NCBI GenBank assembly: GCA_947644195.1
Contig: CANRZB010000001.1
Coordinates: forward strand, 62,001 to 126,000
Direction: 5' to 3'
DNA length: 64,000 bases
Origin: an uncultured Clostridium sp.
GTDB taxonomy: Bacteria > Bacillota > Clostridia > Lachnospirales > Lachnospiraceae
Below the pieces are notes generated by a model, which had not been told where the DNA came from, searched no databases, and saw nothing but the letters and a program-made list of their open reading frames with translations. This document shows, piece after piece, positions 1,538 through 28,878 of this stretch; positions within the stretch are counted from its first letter, which is position 1; every line of letters begins with the position of its first letter. Position numbers and translations under genes: made by a program.

Positions 1538-3820
1538 TCATTGCCGACGGTATAAATGGTATTCCCCCTCCGCATGTTCCAGTTCAAAATTGGAAGAAAA
1601 AGCGCTTTCCTCAGAAATTCCATAATTATAACGTTCGCTTGGCCCAACCAGAATATAATCTACCCCATACTGATCCAGTAATGCCTGATCTGCAGGGTTG
1701 GCATACATCTGCCCCACAGCAATCTCAGCCTGCTGATATGGCATTCCATGATAATATAGGATGGAAGAAGATCCGCACACGATGTTCCGCCCCGTCAGGG
1801 AGGATATCGCATTATTGTGTCGGGTATCTGTCAGAATAACAGCATCCGGCTCCAGCACATCTTCAATATACCTGCACATTTTAAGTTCATCGGCAGGATA
1901 CAATTCATAATGTGACACAGCCTCCCGCCCCATCGTAAGAATCGCCGAGATTGTCATGATGAACAGGGAAACTGCCAATAATACTCCACGCACTACTTTT
2001 CGCCTTTGTAATTTCTCCCAAAGTTTTAGGATCCATTCCGAGACTAACATTGCAAAAAACAGATAGCCCACGAGAAGAACCTTATTGTTATCATATGAAT
2101 TTGGCTGAAAGATCACTAATTCCGAAACATACCAGATAAAAAATGCCGGGCCAATCTTCCATAAAGTTTTCCTATTCATACTGAAAACTGCCACTATCGT
2201 AAACACAAACATCAATCCTAAGTTTTTCAGATAAAAGGAAAGAAAATGCTCATTCTCATTACACCAGTTAAAACTCCCCCGAAGAAATTGTTCCCCTTGC
2301 GCCTGTTGAAAAGTCCAGATAAATAACTGTGGCAGTGCAAAAAGCAGAACCAACCCCAAAAAGATTCCCCATAGAATGACAGTCTGTTTGCCGCCAGAAA
2401 ACCCTGTCCATCTATTTGCCCGCGTTTTCCTCCCTGCCTTAGTTTTATGGTCCGCCTTGGCAGATGTTCCACGCCTGGTCTTCTGTGGCTTTGCGTGAAC
2501 AACTGCCACCTGTTTCCATCCCTGCCAGACCATCCAGATACATAATGATGTGATTATCACTGCTCCACCCACAGCCAACCCCAACAATAGATTAGGACTG
2601 AGTTTTGTGGTTTTGGATATATGCGCAAAGCTCAGAAAATTAAAGAGCAGAAATCCTAATAGAAAGAGCGCTCTCTCTAACACCGGTTTCTGATCCATCC
2701 AGTCCGGATGCATCTCCTGCAGCAGAGAACCCAATAACCAGATCGCACCAACAAAAGCCATGGCAACGAACGAATGGGTATGAATCATCGGCAGGGCTCC
2801 CGTCAAAATTCCTGCCAAAACGATATATGACCGCTTTTTCTTTTTGAGCGCTAAAGCTAAAACTAAGATCGTTGGAAACAGAACTGCCCACCCAAACAGC
2901 GTGGCACGCTGGGGCAGAAGCATATCCACCACAACATTTGTCCAACGCACGTTATCATCAATCAAATTCGTCGGTGTCTGGTAAAATTCCGTAAAAATAC
3001 GGGTAAAATTACCGATTCCTTTCTCGCCAAACACATTTACGAAATATAAAAATCCCAGCCCACCGTCAAAGAAAAACAGGATCCAGGTTAAAATACCACT
3101 CCATTTGCGGAACAATGTGGACGCCAGCAGGTATACACCACCCATAACCTGCCAAAAAGCAACCAGCATCGGTAAATTATATGCCAGCCGTAGACTGGAA
3201 CCCCAGAGATAAATACTAGAAGAAATACTATCACACAGAAATGGATAACAGATCCGATGCCCTGGCAAGATCGAATACTCTGGCGGGAAAACTCCCTGAC
3301 GCGCAATACTGGTAATAAAAGAAAAATGCATGTTCATATCACCATACGTAGCTTGTCCCGTACCATATGCGCCAGAATCTTCCGGCAGTAATGTATGTGT
3401 TTTTAATAAGTAGCAGAAGAATAGGAACATAATCGCAGATAAAACCAGAAACAACTTATCCTCCCCCGAAATTTTTGACACAGACTTTTGTCTGGCACTT
3501 CCTTTCTTATTTCTGGTGCGTTTCGTCTGTCTGCCTGTGTTGTTTTCGGCAGTTACCGTAGTTACATACCAGGTCACTCCAATGGTAAGAGCAAGCAAAA
3601 AGACCAATGCCATCGCATGGGCGCCAACCGTGAACCCCATCGGAATTGCACATAACAAAGGAAGCCACTGCAGCAAGACCGATCCTGCCACACTTCCCAC
3701 TAAGACACGTACTCCTAAACTCTCTTTTGCAAAAAGACGCCAGGAAATCCAAATGCCTGCAGCCATAAACAAAGCCCAATATCCAACTCCTACCATATTC
3801 CCCCACAATGAACCGTCCAT
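1538..3820 (-). CDS. Large polytopic membrane protein, GT-C glycosyltransferase-like
   Basis: This 760-aa protein has about 14-16 hydrophobic segments, a basic loop near residues 95-115 (QTKRTRNKKGSARQKS) and a second basic loop near 450-470, and a soluble C-terminal tail of about 120 residues after the last membrane segment. A conserved-looking extracytoplasmic stretch (LLPEDSGAYGTG, GDMNMHFSFI, YPFLCD) near residues 145-200 follows the early membrane helices, the position where GT-C enzymes carry their acidic catalytic loop. I therefore suggest a lipid-linked sugar transferase or related integral membrane enzyme, but no family motif is decisive. It starts at ATG 3820 behind GAGGATTAGTT. The gene is the only one between its structured leader and the yitJ-like gene, 130 nt downstream. 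Confidence 0.6.
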   Translation of the reverse strand: MDGSLWGNMVGVGYWALFMAAGIWISWRLFAKESLGVRVLVGSVAGSVLLQWLPLLCAIPMGFTVGAHAMALVFLLALTIGVTWYVTTVTAENNTGRQTKRTRNKKGSARQKSVSKISGEDKLFLVLSAIMFLFFCYLLKTHTLLPEDSGAYGTGQATYGDMNMHFSFITSIARQGVFPPEYSILPGHRICYPFLCDSISSSIYLWGSSLRLAYNLPMLVAFWQVMGGVYLLASTLFRKWSGILTWILFFFDGGLGFLYFVNVFGEKGIGNFTRIFTEFYQTPTNLIDDNVRWTNVVVDMLLPQRATLFGWAVLFPTILVLALALKKKKRSYIVLAGILTGALPMIHTHSFVAMAFVGAIWLLGSLLQEMHPDWMDQKPVLERALFLLGFLLFNFLSFAHISKTTKLSPNLLLGLAVGGAVIITSLCIWMVWQGWKQVAVVHAKPQKTRRGTSAKADHKTKAGRKTRANRWTGFSGGKQTVILWGIFLGLVLLFALPQLFIWTFQQAQGEQFLRGSFNWCNENEHFLSFYLKNLGLMFVFTIVAVFSMNRKTLWKIGPAFFIWYVSELVIFQPNSYDNNKVLLVGYLFFAMLVSEWILKLWEKLQRRKVVRGVLLAVSLFIMTISAILTMGREAVSHYELYPADELKMCRYIEDVLEPDAVILTDTRHNNAISSLTGRNIVCGSSSILYYHGMPYQQAEIAVGQMYANPADQALLDQYGVDYILVGPSERYNYGISEESAFSSNFELEHAEGEYHLYRRQ

Positions 3821-3835
3821 AACTAATCCTCATTT

Positions 3836-3893
3836 CTGCACTGCCGTGTAACTCCTGTCCTGTCTGTACCGCAGTGCAGGAACAGACAGGACA
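3836..3893 (-). promoter_or_regulatory. Predicted H-type pseudoknot leader
   Basis: Two perfect helices cross. Bases 3856-3867 pair with 3882-3893 (12 bp, TGTCCTGTCTGT type), and bases 3836-3844 pair with 3871-3879 (9 bp, CTGCACTGC type), the latter lying in the loop of the former. On the minus-strand transcript the connecting loops are 2, 3 and 11 nt, a geometry that fits an H-type pseudoknot. The 3' end of the second stem is three bases from the GAGG ribosome site of the 760-aa membrane protein gene. A perfect TATAAT (minus strand, 3900-3905) would place the transcript start near 3893, the first base of stem 1; no good -35 box accompanies it. Confidence 0.6.
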
Positions 3894-5626: not shown

Positions 5627-7480
5627 TCAGTACACATTATCCGGCTGACAATCTTCAAACAGGCAGGAACGCACCTTATGACCGATCCCCCGGTCCACGG
5701 CCCCTCCCCTGGAATCTGCCACACAACGTTTAAAATTACACTGTTCGATCATACCAGGTGTATTTCCATACATTCGAATTCCGGCACCATTCTTCTCCCG
5801 GCAGTTAATAAACACACATCTCCGCAAGGTACCGCCCTGCGTATAGACTGCCCCTCCCTGACAGAAGTTAAAGATAGAATCCTGGATATCTGGGGCATAG
5901 GCATTATAGATCGCTCTCCCCCCCTGCGTATTCCGAAAAATAGAACGGCGAACCCGCAGTCTCGTGCCATTTGCATGAATAGCACCCGTCTTGAGCATAC
6001 CATCAAAATCACAATGGCAGATCTCCGCATGTTTTGCGTGGTCCAGGATCATCATATCTCCTTTTTCCAATCCACCACAGACAATTCTGCTGTTTTCCAT
6101 CTTCAGGGTACCCCGGCACCGGATAGGATAATTCAGATATACTTTGGAATTCTCAATCAGAAGTGTTCCCTGGGATTTGACATCTACCGGACAATCCACA
6201 ATCACGGACTCCTGAATTGCTAACTGATCTGTAACCGTAATCCCTGCTTTATCGTATAAATACTGTACCAGCTCCGCACCGGACGGATGACAGTCTGCAT
6301 ATTCCAAATGATGCACTGCATTTCCAATCATCCCGTTGTAAAATACGGCAGCCCCATATTCGGACACACAACAATCTTCAAAATGACAGTGGTGCACGGA
6401 AATCCCTGGAACACTGTATACCGCCCCACCACGGTTTGCCTCACAATCCCGGAAATAACAATTCTTGATCTCTCCTGTTCCACCCCGGAGCATCAATGCT
6501 CCTCCATCCTCAGGGGAATAACACTCCGAGAACCGACACCGTTCCATCTGTATCCGCTCTCCCCAGAAACGGATGGCAGCCCCCCTTGTCGTCCGATATA
6601 TTTTCGTATCCGTCATCTCTACTGTTCCATCCTCTGCCCGGAGAAACATTCCCAAGTTCCGGCAGTCAGCGGCACTATCTCGAACCGTCAATCTCCCCCC
6701 CTGCATATGGATATTGATACAAGCTCGATGACGGTTACTCTTACGGATGATTTTGCTATTCTCAATCAAGAGCTCCCCACCCTCCAGAGCAATATTTCCA
6801 TAGATCCTGACCTCCGCATGGTCAATGACCAGACGCATACCGGATCGCAGAACCAAATCCTCATGGATCTCACTGCGGTCTACCAGATGAACCTCCCGCT
6901 CCTGCTCTAACTGCTCCTGTGTACAAACAATTTCTTTTCCTAATGGCATACTATAAAACTTTAATTCCGACTCTGACAGATCCGCTTCCAGACGATAAAT
7001 CTGTTCCGCCCATTTTTTACTCTGCTCCTGCTCCTCCTGCCTGACACTACCGATATAATCCCGTAAAAGCTGAGACCAGTTTTTATAGATCCCCAAAATC
7101 CGCTCCCACAGGTCGATCCATTCCTGTGCCTCCTGATCCCATCCACCGTCAGTATAGGATACGCTCAAGAGATCCAGCATAAATAATATCTTGTCGTGCT
7201 CTGTCACGATCAGATCGGATACCTGGTCAAGAACCTTACTCTCTTCGCCCGCAAGCTGAATTACCTTGGTCATCTGATTCCCAGACAACCCTAACCCTAC
7301 CTGTAGTACTCTCTCCAATTCCGTATTATTCAACACATTGCAATCCTTGCTGCGCTGCGCCTGTAAGAATAACGCCGCTCCATAATATTCTTTGAATTGG
7401 GAAGAACGCAGATAAAAACTATGTTTTGGCGTCATCCATAAACGCTTTTTTTCATTAAATTTCGTCAATATGTCCTGCAT
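5627..7480 (-). CDS. Cytoplasmic protein with TerB-like helical domain and long parallel beta-helix
   Basis: The 617-aa product has no signal peptide or membrane segment. Residues about 50-170 are helical and resemble the tellurite-resistance TerB fold (FMLDLLSVSYTDGGWDQEAQEW near 105-125). From about 205 to the end the protein consists of irregular repeats such as GGALMLRGGTGEIKNCYFRD and RGGAVYS, with Cys/Asn ladders, typical of right-handed parallel beta-helices. It is a paralogue of the 413-aa protein encoded 13 nt upstream and probably co-transcribed with it; GGAGGTGAATAG before the ATG overlaps that intergenic space. Beta-helix proteins are usually exported, so a cytoplasmic one is odd. 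The function is not known; a scaffold or a spatial marker partnered with the MinD-like protein is only a guess. Confidence 0.75.
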   Translation of the reverse strand: MQDILTKFNEKKRLWMTPKHSFYLRSSQFKEYYGAALFLQAQRSKDCNVLNNTELERVLQVGLGLSGNQMTKVIQLAGEESKVLDQVSDLIVTEHDKILFMLDLLSVSYTDGGWDQEAQEWIDLWERILGIYKNWSQLLRDYIGSVRQEEQEQSKKWAEQIYRLEADLSESELKFYSMPLGKEIVCTQEQLEQEREVHLVDRSEIHEDLVLRSGMRLVIDHAEVRIYGNIALEGGELLIENSKIIRKSNRHRACINIHMQGGRLTVRDSAADCRNLGMFLRAEDGTVEMTDTKIYRTTRGAAIRFWGERIQMERCRFSECYSPEDGGALMLRGGTGEIKNCYFRDCEANRGGAVYSVPGISVHHCHFEDCCVSEYGAAVFYNGMIGNAVHHLEYADCHPSGAELVQYLYDKAGITVTDQLAIQESVIVDCPVDVKSQGTLLIENSKVYLNYPIRCRGTLKMENSRIVCGGLEKGDMMILDHAKHAEICHCDFDGMLKTGAIHANGTRLRVRRSIFRNTQGGRAIYNAYAPDIQDSIFNFCQGGAVYTQGGTLRRCVFINCREKNGAGIRMYGNTPGMIEQCNFKRCVADSRGGAVDRGIGHKVRSCLFEDCQPDNVY

Positions 7481-7493
7481 CTATTCACCTCCC

Positions 7494-8726
7494 CTATCGA
7501 ATCTGCATCTCAACATCATCGGAATATACATGAAAAATCGGCTTTTGCTCCGGAGTACACGACTGGCAGATGCAGTCTTTCACTAACTGACCAAATTTAT
7601 GATACTTGAAATAAATGGCCGCACCCAGATATTTTGCCTGACAACGGTCAAAACGGCAATGGGTTATTCTCACATTTCCGATGGAATCGGAATAAACTGC
7701 CCCACCATACTCTGCACTTCCCTCGATAAAGGTACAATCTTCCACATTCATACCTGCGGCCTGCCCAATCGACAACAGACCTGCTCTGCCATGCCTGAAA
7801 TGACAGCGGCTAATATTCGCAGAATATCCTGAAAAGGTAAGCATATATGCCTTGGCCGCATGTAAGATCCGAGAATCGGCCATGATTAGCCTGCCCGCAT
7901 CCTGCGCCAGAAAACCACAATGTAATCCCAGATCAATTTCCGTATTTTCTATCTTAACTACCGCTGTCCGATGCAGTGTCAGCCAGTAATCCGTTTCACA
8001 TCCTCCAATCCGCACCGTGGCATCACGCATCCGAAATCTTCCACCATTCATATAAACCGATCCCTTCATCGAGATGTCTGCGCCATACAAAAGCAGGGAG
8101 CCTCCCCGTTCCACAATAATATCCCCGTCAATCTGAACAGGCCTGTCTAGCAGCAAAGTCTCCCCTGCCGCCACAGTCAATTTACCATAGCTGGTTTCCA
8201 AATGAAATCCGGGAAAGAAATGTTTGAGCGCCGCATACGATATTTCATAACCCTGCTCACAAAATCTCTCATAGGTCCGTACTGCAAGCGAACTATCATT
8301 GCGTTTGGCTGCTTCATTAAACTCTTGAAAAAAGGTTCGCTCCGCACCAGAAAAATGAAAAATCTGTATGTAATTTTCCAAAATATGTTCACAATAGTCC
8401 TGCGACCAAAGAGACAGATTATACAGCCGATATAGATCCAAGATAAAACAATAACGTTCCTCCTTGCGCTGCACACGATTGACCACCTCTGTCAAACGAA
8501 ATTCCAAATAATTATTGATATCAACGATGATCTGCTCTCTTTGCTTCAGAGGAAGATGAATCTCATCCAACATGGATCCAAAATAATCCTGCAACTCTGT
8601 AATGGCACGCATATTCCCCATTGCCATAACCCCCAAACCAAAACAATATAAATATTGGAAAGACGGTTCCGCCTGCGCATACGGATGCTCATAGGTACGA
8701 TATCCTGATAACTGTTCCTGCTCCAT
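7494..8726 (-). CDS. Second TerB-like/beta-helix protein
   Basis: This 410-aa protein has the same plan as the 617-aa neighbour but shorter: a helical N-terminal half (about 15-165, GLGVMAMGNMRAITELQDYF, CFILDLYRLYNLSLWSQDY) and a beta-helix from about 175 on (GGSLLLYGADISMKGSVYM, EYGGAVYSD, AAIYFKYHKF). No signal peptide is visible. I start it at the ATG at 8726, 10 nt after GGAG; two GTG codons lie just upstream in frame. Histidine and cysteine residues recur on the repeat faces (CHFRHG, CTFIEG, CRFDRC), as in the paralogue. It lies between the MinD-like gene (84 nt away) and the 617-aa paralogue (13 nt), and the three look like one transcription unit. I cannot assign a biochemical role. 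Confidence 0.72.
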   Translation of the reverse strand: MEQEQLSGYRTYEHPYAQAEPSFQYLYCFGLGVMAMGNMRAITELQDYFGSMLDEIHLPLKQREQIIVDINNYLEFRLTEVVNRVQRKEERYCFILDLYRLYNLSLWSQDYCEHILENYIQIFHFSGAERTFFQEFNEAAKRNDSSLAVRTYERFCEQGYEISYAALKHFFPGFHLETSYGKLTVAAGETLLLDRPVQIDGDIIVERGGSLLLYGADISMKGSVYMNGGRFRMRDATVRIGGCETDYWLTLHRTAVVKIENTEIDLGLHCGFLAQDAGRLIMADSRILHAAKAYMLTFSGYSANISRCHFRHGRAGLLSIGQAAGMNVEDCTFIEGSAEYGGAVYSDSIGNVRITHCRFDRCQAKYLGAAIYFKYHKFGQLVKDCICQSCTPEQKPIFHVYSDDVEMQIR

Positions 8727-8809
8727 TGACACCACACTCCTTACGCTCTGATCCTATTTCGTCTATTGTACCATGAAAAGTTAGTTCCCGAAAAGACAGG
8801 AAAGAAAAA

Positions 8810-27627: not shown

Positions 27628-28878
27628 TCACCTCATTTCTGTCTTGCTTTTCAAGTTACTTTGTTCCATGGATACTCCAGTAACTACATCAGAATACTGA
27701 AAATCAACACGATCACACTGTCTGGCAATTTTCTTCGAAACACGCACTATGCTAACAGAATACTGCCATCCACCCCCAAAATCCTCTTGACCAAGTATAC
27801 AGTCAAACTGGATATTCAGGCGCTTTCCCCCCTCCTCTGCTACATCCAAAAATACACGGTTTAATTCCAATTCCAACCCTTCCTTTTTTATGACGACATC
27901 CATACAAAGTGTATCAGAATCAAAATCTTTGGGTTGATACTTCTGCAAATACAACAGAATTCTCTGCAAAGAAGCATCGGGATCCTGATCTAGCTTATTC
28001 TGAATCACTCCGATCATGAGTTGCAACTCTTCATAGGAATGAATCATCTTTTCTTGGAAAATCTCCCCCAAAACCCCTGTTTCGACATCAACAGTAGGCT
28101 TACCCTCCGGCTTACCGCTAGGAAAAAGTATATCAGGCCGAGTAAAAGAAAAACTCTCCACACTGCATAATGCAACATAATTCTCTGATGGAAACACCAT
28201 ACTCGGCGGTACGGGTACTTCCGGTTCTACCCCTGGATGGACTGGCTCCTTGTCCTGTGGCCTCTCAGGATCCCTCCCATCCTCCTGCTCTCCCGGCTCT
28301 GTATTACTAGTTACCGGTGGAACAGAAGGTTTGGATCCTGGCTTTTGTTGCTTGGAATCAGATTTCCCTGAAAAGGAATCTACGGTTTCTTTTGCCTCTC
28401 CCTCATTTTTTTGTGACTTAGTGTACTTTCCAGGAAATTCTCCCACCCCCGTTGTGTTACTGTTCCTTTCGCTGCTTCCTCTTCCGTTTTCCTGCGGAAC
28501 ATCCTGTTTCCGATCAACATCCGTTTCCTCTTTTTGATCTGTCTGTCTCTTTGTTTCTACCTGATCCTCTCGACCCACGGGATGTTCCGTTTCCCTTGGT
28601 ACTTGATCCTCTTTGAGCGCTACATCCTGTTTTACAGGCATCCCAGGATTCCGTAATTTCTCCCGCCCAAAGATCTGTATCCCAAATCCCACCAATAAAA
28701 TCATTCCGGCACAAGCAACAGCCAGGAACATTTTATGGTACCTCTCTTTTTTTTTCCAAAAAGGCGCTTCCACCTCCCTTTTTTTCATCTCCAGGATCAC
28801 GGTCCGGCAAAACTCCAGGGAAGGTGTCTCCTGATCCTTATATGCCTGCTTTAACAAATCATCCAGACGATACTTCAT
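27628..28878 (-). CDS. Anti-sigma factor-like membrane protein
   Basis: The 416-aa protein starts with a short cytoplasmic region (1-47, YRLDDLLKQAYKDQETP), then one membrane segment (about 48-70, MFLAVACAGMILLVGFGIQIF). A long hydrophilic Pro/Glu-rich linker (about 80-230) and an extracytoplasmic domain (about 235-400) complete it. Its start lies 20 bp inside the sigma gene, the classic ECF sigma/anti-sigma arrangement. The C-terminal domain (IHSYEELQLMIGVIQNKL, ELELNRVFLDVAEEGGKRLNIQF) resembles that of the secreted protein downstream. It is inferred to hold the sigma factor at the membrane until an outside signal arrives. No zinc HxxxCxxC anti-sigma motif is seen. Confidence 0.72.
   Translation of the reverse strand: MKYRLDDLLKQAYKDQETPSLEFCRTVILEMKKREVEAPFWKKKERYHKMFLAVACAGMILLVGFGIQIFGREKLRNPGMPVKQDVALKEDQVPRETEHPVGREDQVETKRQTDQKEETDVDRKQDVPQENGRGSSERNSNTTGVGEFPGKYTKSQKNEGEAKETVDSFSGKSDSKQQKPGSKPSVPPVTSNTEPGEQEDGRDPERPQDKEPVHPGVEPEVPVPPSMVFPSENYVALCSVESFSFTRPDILFPSGKPEGKPTVDVETGVLGEIFQEKMIHSYEELQLMIGVIQNKLDQDPDASLQRILLYLQKYQPKDFDSDTLCMDVVIKKEGLELELNRVFLDVAEEGGKRLNIQFDCILGQEDFGGGWQYSVSIVRVSKKIARQCDRVDFQYSDVVTGVSMEQSNLKSKTEMR

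Follow-up and report, generated by a model that had tools for sequence, protein, structure and literature searches.

Is the fold predicted in the leader of a gene for a 760-aa membrane protein a switch dedicated to that gene, as a preliminary description had proposed, or part of something more general? The gene occupies positions 1538–3820 of the minus strand of the window, i.e., the whole 64,000-nt stretch of DNA analysed, and its product has a weak match to Pfam Dpy19, under the curated cut-off, and no NCBIfam match at E ≤ 0.01. The leader contains two perfect helices on the same strand, read from pairing in the sequence and supported by covariation in the family described below. P1 (12 bp) joins the 5' arm TGTCCTGTCTGT (3893–3882) to the 3' arm ACAGACAGGACA (3867–3856), and P2 (9 bp), which crosses it, joins CTGCACTGC (3879–3871), located within the P1 loop, to GCAGTGCAG (3844–3836). 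The loops measure 2 nt (3881–3880), 3 nt (3870–3868), and 11 nt (3855–3845), the last (loop 3) linking P1 to the P2 3' strand. An H-type pseudoknot is present as originally described, coordinates and loops included, and it does adjoin the ribosome site: the Shine–Dalgarno (SD) sequence AAATGAGG (3835–3828) contains GAGG (3831–3828) four bases past P2, and the ATG at 3820 lies seven bases beyond GAGG.

The nested part of the fold alone was calculated at −27.3 kcal/mol (z = −2.69 against shuffles). The pseudoknot score, 53.5, is the highest among 30 paralogous copies and far above the 99th percentile (30.0) of 900 dinucleotide-shuffled sequences, a measure that is not specific by itself, as an element-free leader of the relative G010 (L388) reaches 32.0 via a different pairing. 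Rfam 15 gave no matches at the gathering threshold in the window and none at E ≤ 5 in 11 loci, in line with the initial remark that the fold fitted no class familiar to its author. Elsewhere in the window, a weak model match (15.1 bits) at 27630–27681 has no pseudoknot evident by eye and was taken as a chance hit, and two neighbouring genes at 5627–8735 of the minus strand encode repetitive proteins resembling beta-helix surface or carbohydrate proteins, as judged by eye from their translations.

The leaders of 20 orthologues of the 760-aa gene, from 19 congeneric genomes, were compared, the start sites being uncertain in some of them. The end of the element, CAGAAA(T/A)GAGG, occurs in none of the 20 leaders, and that of the closest orthologue (G010, 72% identity) scores 0. 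Other pairings take two leaders past 30, L006 to 35.0 (reached by 1 of 40 shuffles) and L016 to 34.0 (by none of 40); L012 scores 30.0, and the remaining 17 fall below 30. The crossing helices in L006 and L016 differ from those of the element, and a structure unrelated to it may exist in L006, L016 or L012. Loss of the helices or of compensatory changes in orthologous leaders had been named beforehand as evidence against the fold; this is what the orthologues of the window gene display, but in the family of copies as a whole such changes are plentiful. A gene-specific riboswitch was rejected, since the orthologous leaders are without the element and the genes found downstream of its copies are unrelated to each other, so the idea of a switch dedicated to the 760-aa gene had to be abandoned.

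Rather than being private to the 760-aa gene, the window feature is a single representative of a short repeated element. A search of the window's genome (G000) with GGCAGTGCAGAAATGAGGA, which covers the last part of the fold (the P2 3' strand with the bases that follow) and the SD, returned 30 occurrences at up to 3 mismatches, the window copy included, and none with the reversed control. An ATG is located 3–7 nt downstream in 29 of the 30. Although P1 was not used to pick these copies, 20 of them exceed the shuffled 99th percentile of the pseudoknot score, and the other 10 do not; in several of the 20 high scorers, the P1 arm matches the commonest arm at only 2–5 of 8 bases. When T or G was left unpenalised at the SD position, 16 perfect matches were obtained in G000, all of them with T. 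A covariance model found 81 matches in this genome at E ≤ 1, of which 38 pass E < 1e-3, and many of the weak ones are only SD-like.

Both crossing helices are backed by compensatory changes, and the element is an H-type pseudoknot RNA. Double-sided changes were detected at 11 of 17 pairs in 15 G000 paralogues (4.3 in shuffles), and sliding the partner by one base reduces pairing from 91% to 24–25%. In 88 copies from many genomes, 12 of 17 pairs carry double changes, with 122 double-change cells versus 29.3 in shuffles; P2 invariance and P1 pairing are inflated in this set, as in a larger set of 244 copies, because an exact P2 pattern served to select the genome-contig loci and P1 pairing raises the model scores. 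Under symmetric scoring of 237 copies, G·U outnumbers A·C by 129 to 22 in P1 and by 79 to 29 in P2. This large excess of G·U indicates that the paired strand is the transcript.

A complete copy spans about 90–95 nt and consists of a hairpin designated P0, the sequence GGCAAG, the H-type pseudoknot (P1 and P2), and AAATGAGG. P0, an A/T-rich hairpin with the sequence GAGTGAAAAATAAATTTTTCACTC or similar, lies upstream of P1 in many copies, including those close to the consensus, and the P0-to-GAGG distance is typically 90–94 nt (median 94, range 77–131, measurable at 24 of 30 loci). By pattern, P0 was found in 13 of the 28 genomes of the genus, most often in G026 (17 copies), and it was not found in G000 with up to 3 mismatches. 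Since the window copy is without P0, it was taken as old, and it is probably an old copy of the element. No terminal inverted repeats were seen on inspection, the left end GAGTGAAA and the right end AAATGAGG not being complementary. The linker between P1 and the P2 3' strand, by inspection, is often A-rich in other copies. An alternative hairpin, in which TGCGC or TGCAC of the linker pairs with the P2 3' strand and would compete with P2, was also noticed by eye, with exceptions.

The right end is tied to translation starts. Among the 244 copies, the eight-base stretch behind P2 reads AAATGAGG in 177, AAAAGAGG in 28, and AAACGAGG in 6; the stronger SD AAAGGAGG occurs in none of the 244, as though selection disfavoured a strong SD. 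In 237 of 244 distinct copies, an ORF of at least 40 aa starts 3–10 nt after GAGG, and random positions in the same loci have an ORF within 2–15 nt in 340 of 1880 cases. The start codon of the host gene most often lies 6 nt after the element's SD; an ATG exactly 6 nt after GAGG is present in 141 of the 244 copies. Ahead of P1, the window copy has a TATAAT on the minus strand (3905–3900, six bases upstream), which had been proposed to start transcription at the first base of P1. It matches the consensus of a −10 box and may act as one for this copy, but −10-like hexamers just before P1 number 30 over 224 copies, compared with a mean of 37 in equal windows farther upstream, and a transcription start at P1 was rejected as a family rule.

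To the left of P0, a strict SD-like sequence precedes 22 of 30 pattern-found loci and is absent from the other 8, versus 76 of 1334 background windows; for structure-found copies, an SD-like sequence is present on the left in 32 of 58, versus a background of 193 of 1873. Filled and empty orthologous sites were identified, a clean pair at rplN and a supporting one at rfbB. At rplN, four genomes are homologous over the S17 coding end and the SD, with G000 and G010 filled and G026 and G006 empty. The empty sites read GAATATGGAGGTAATC-ATG or a close variant, and the filled site of G010 reads GAATATGGAGTTAA, then P0-P1-P2-GCAGAAATGAGGAGAAATC, then ATG, G000 being filled at the same place. At the filled sites, an element of approximately 90 nt, equipped with an SD of its own, separates the ancestral SD from the start codon. 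At rfbB, CAGAATGGAGGAAA lies ahead of P0 in the filled copy; in two relatives without the element, ACAGAATGGAGGA is found about 12 nt upstream of the probable start. A possible target duplication (TAA/AAA at rplN, TTAC at a decarboxylase gene) is not consistent among the 58 structure-found copies. Insertion at the window gene is deduced from the family because the ancestral SD is gone there. Tandem copies occur on the minus strand of L100 (1501–1563 and 1595–1652) and L314 (1501–1561 and 1594–1661), where the second copy sits right behind the SD of the upstream one.

The downstream genes have no common pathway. They include genes for ribosomal proteins, gyrase, ATP synthase, NusA, tRNA ligases, and sugar metabolism. 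NCBIfam matched 23 of the 30 downstream proteins of G000, the best names being ATP synthase beta, gyrase B, NusA, L11, L14, proline and aspartate tRNA ligases, glutamate synthase small subunit, thioredoxin, mannitol transporter, phosphopentomutase, and glucanotransferase, some of them below the cut-off with queries of up to 400 residues. A riboswitch would be expected before genes of one metabolite or signal, whereas the genes here belong to many pathways. Counterparts of 34 downstream proteins were sought in three congeners and their leaders were read. Of 26 G000 genes with a counterpart in G010, the window gene included, 5 keep the element there, 2 have possible remnants, and 19 are without it, strict orthology being doubtful for some counterparts that are 54–69% identical or aligned from residue 24. 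The element is kept at rplN, rplK, gltD, nusA (with a degraded P1), and a gene that we take to encode a DUF4867-like protein, for which NCBIfam gave no match. As for the possible remnants, a galM-like gene keeps the 3' end, and the leader of the L036 gene has another end and pairing that scores 37.0. At gltD, both species share a rare P2 variant, and 5 of the 14 P1 pairs have changed double-sidedly, with 13 and 14 of the 14 still paired, a pattern that favours selection acting on the element where it stands. Clustering of the 237 downstream proteins placed only 45 in 20 clusters shared between genera, one gene being counted twice. The element is present in the gyrB-like leaders L303, L380, L110, and L393 (four genomes, two genera) and absent from that of the closest relative, G010, which reflects either repeated insertion or loss.

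With the first covariance model, matches were found in all 28 genomes of the genus, from 7 to 135 per genome (E ≤ 1). With the second, applied to one genome from each genus of the family, 24 of 174 were positive, and four had at least 20 copies, these counts being lower bounds as 31 candidates per genome were scored. In a sample of 299 genomes of the phylum, two genomes besides G000 had one weak hit each, and the genomes of the same family among those listed from this sample had none. A pattern scan of GTDB genomes returned at least 115 stretches, of which 80, several sharing a genome, were taken as loci; of these 80, 35 have Lachnospiraceae in their titles, and the others name Parablautia, Roseburia, Lachnoclostridium, Acetatifactor, Clostridium, Acetivibrio, Eubacterium, Ruminococcaceae or similar, or no genus. 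Both Parablautia intestinalis and [Clostridium] fimetarium belong to the Lachnospiraceae. The hits are nearly confined to one gut family, which, judging from these titles, is Lachnospiraceae. The exact element pattern is absent from the viral contigs of IMG/VR, and one canonical copy had no match in plasmids. A version with 74–77% identity is carried by 10 phage-filed records from human faeces; the four opened (MT836618.1, MT837311.1, MT838294.1, and MT836374.1; L498–L501) are flagged as unverified and carry no annotation; P0 follows an SD-like or purine-rich stretch in each, and the downstream ORF, readable in three of them, is chromosomal-looking on our reading. The phage-filed records may therefore be bacterial DNA.

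We consider it likely that the window feature belongs to a mobile, non-coding, multicopy pseudoknot element of one gut family that carries a ribosome-binding site and is retained as a working leader; its mobility, the relative age of the copies and the effect on translation are inferred from sequence comparison. The element would insert downstream of an existing SD and ahead of the start codon that this SD serves, leaving the old SD too distant, and its own SD would take over initiation, even in essential genes. Most G000 copies have no P0, while P1, P2, and the SD are retained, with compensatory changes, and the pseudoknot therefore appears to be selected as RNA in place. It would most likely provide a compact leader body that ends 3–4 nt before a modest SD and keeps it open. 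Such a body would set or modulate the access of the 30S subunit to an SD at nearly fixed spacing and, in the interpretation that we prefer, make a newly arrived element compatible with gene expression. As to the means of transfer, no transposase, reverse transcriptase or autonomous copy was identified, the enzyme search covering Y1 transposases (PF01797) in 8 genomes: Y1 genes were present in only 3 of the 8 and absent from G026, G214, G000, G008, and G010. Mobilisation of the IS200/IS605 type was not supported, since Y1 is missing from the copy-rich G026 and G214, genomes that are 83% and 86% complete. Compared with MITEs, short non-coding dispersed copies and filled and empty sites were found, and terminal inverted repeats were not.

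A more far-reaching version, to which we give about an even chance, is a mobile element class that targets SD sites, splitting the ribosome-binding site of genes, even essential ones, and installing a pseudoknot-guarded one; dozens of genes in each genome would then share one RNA structure and could be open to control by a single trans factor. The main competing explanation, which is possible but which we doubt, is a class of regulatory leaders, either riboswitches or protein- or sRNA-binding structures, with a broad regulon spread by duplication or recombination, which would sense a signal and gate the modest SD. The occurrence of the structure before the same gene in different genomes (pairs of gltD, metK, gyrB, cotJC-like, and valS leaders), the SD held at AAATGAGG or AAAAGAGG, and the recurrence of some genes across genera in the 20 clusters are consistent with it. 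However, no pathway is common to the downstream genes, 19 of the 26 associations are missing in the sister species, and the filled and empty sites point to insertion into the gap between SD and AUG.

Use regardless of the gene, location beside the SD, and copies inside operons, such as that of rplN directly after the S17 gene, would also suit an mRNA stabiliser, in which the pseudoknot would block 5'-to-3' decay by RNase J just upstream of the ribosome site. Exonuclease-resistant pseudoknots are known, but such a function is reasoned by analogy with them, and we regard it as unlikely. Still less probable is that the fold matters only as single-stranded DNA during transposition, as the end of an IS200/IS605-derived DNA transposon, with no use in RNA. 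Hairpins toward both ends and several near-identical copies fit this explanation, while copies without P0 retain P1 and P2 through compensatory change at orthologous places, and Y1 is absent from 5 of the 8 genomes. Chance complementarity in one leader, for which nothing speaks beyond the first sighting in a single sequence, was ruled out for practical purposes by 30 versus 0 repeats, scores above those of shuffles, and covariation, as the preliminary description had anticipated. The mobile, leader-forming element remains the preferred explanation.

The preQ1 and SAM-II riboswitches and the S15 and S4 leaders each serve one pathway or operon, with the SD usually buried in the fold. The present element resembles them in having an H-type or related pseudoknot beside the SD of an mRNA leader and differs in that its SD lies just outside the fold, its downstream genes are of many kinds, and Rfam gave no match. 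It shares with MITEs, BOX, RUP, Correia, and ERIC sequences the short, non-coding, hairpin-rich structure, the many copies, and the uneven distribution between species, but it occupies the gap between SD and start codon, brings its own SD, has no terminal inverted repeats seen, and keeps a pseudoknot by compensation. End hairpins, the lack of a clear target duplication, and possible insertion 3' of a short motif (GAGG..AA) recall IS200/IS605-derived palindromes and REP/REPIN sequences with their RAYT partner, from which it is distinguished by ribosome sites as the target and by the Y1 distribution described above. Like Rickettsia palindromic elements, it enters critical sites, essential genes included, without destroying them; those elements enter coding sequence in frame, whereas this one replaces the ribosome site. 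We know of no kind of element that enters the gap between SD and start codon and brings a ribosome site with a pseudoknot. In the literature covered, which leaves aside most subscription papers and all preprints, six element sequences had no match, and the element was not reported under descriptions of pseudoknots, structured RNAs, Shine–Dalgarno sequences or mobile elements; nor was a report of it found in PMC11109978, PMC8632094, and PMC8040213. Pseudoknot leaders and miniature repeats are known kinds, and their combination was not found within this coverage.

If this explanation is correct, a mobile element lands on the ribosome-binding site and survives there by supplying a new one, thereby rewiring the translation of ribosomal proteins, gyrase, ATP synthase, and metabolic genes species by species in a major gut family. 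Filled and empty orthologues and copies with and without P0 would then offer a comparative system for control of translation by a pseudoknot beside the SD. It would also caution against reading every leader structure in these genomes as a switch for its own gene.

Some leaders depart from the common form. L492 (G015:C176 near 19361) is a full-length element with a near-canonical P0, a wholly different 9-bp P2 (GCACACGCC/GGCGTGTGC), and the SD GGATGGAGG, which suggests further P2 types that the models could miss. L410, L392, L413, L478, L482, and L489 have a shortened P2 and an extra hairpin (e.g., GGTGAAC..GTTCACC) directly before TTGCAGAAATGAGG or a similar sequence. Finally, L412 and L428, which precede atpD and the L036 gene in G010, share AACGCTTCGGAATGGAGG and possibly represent a second repeated leader family.
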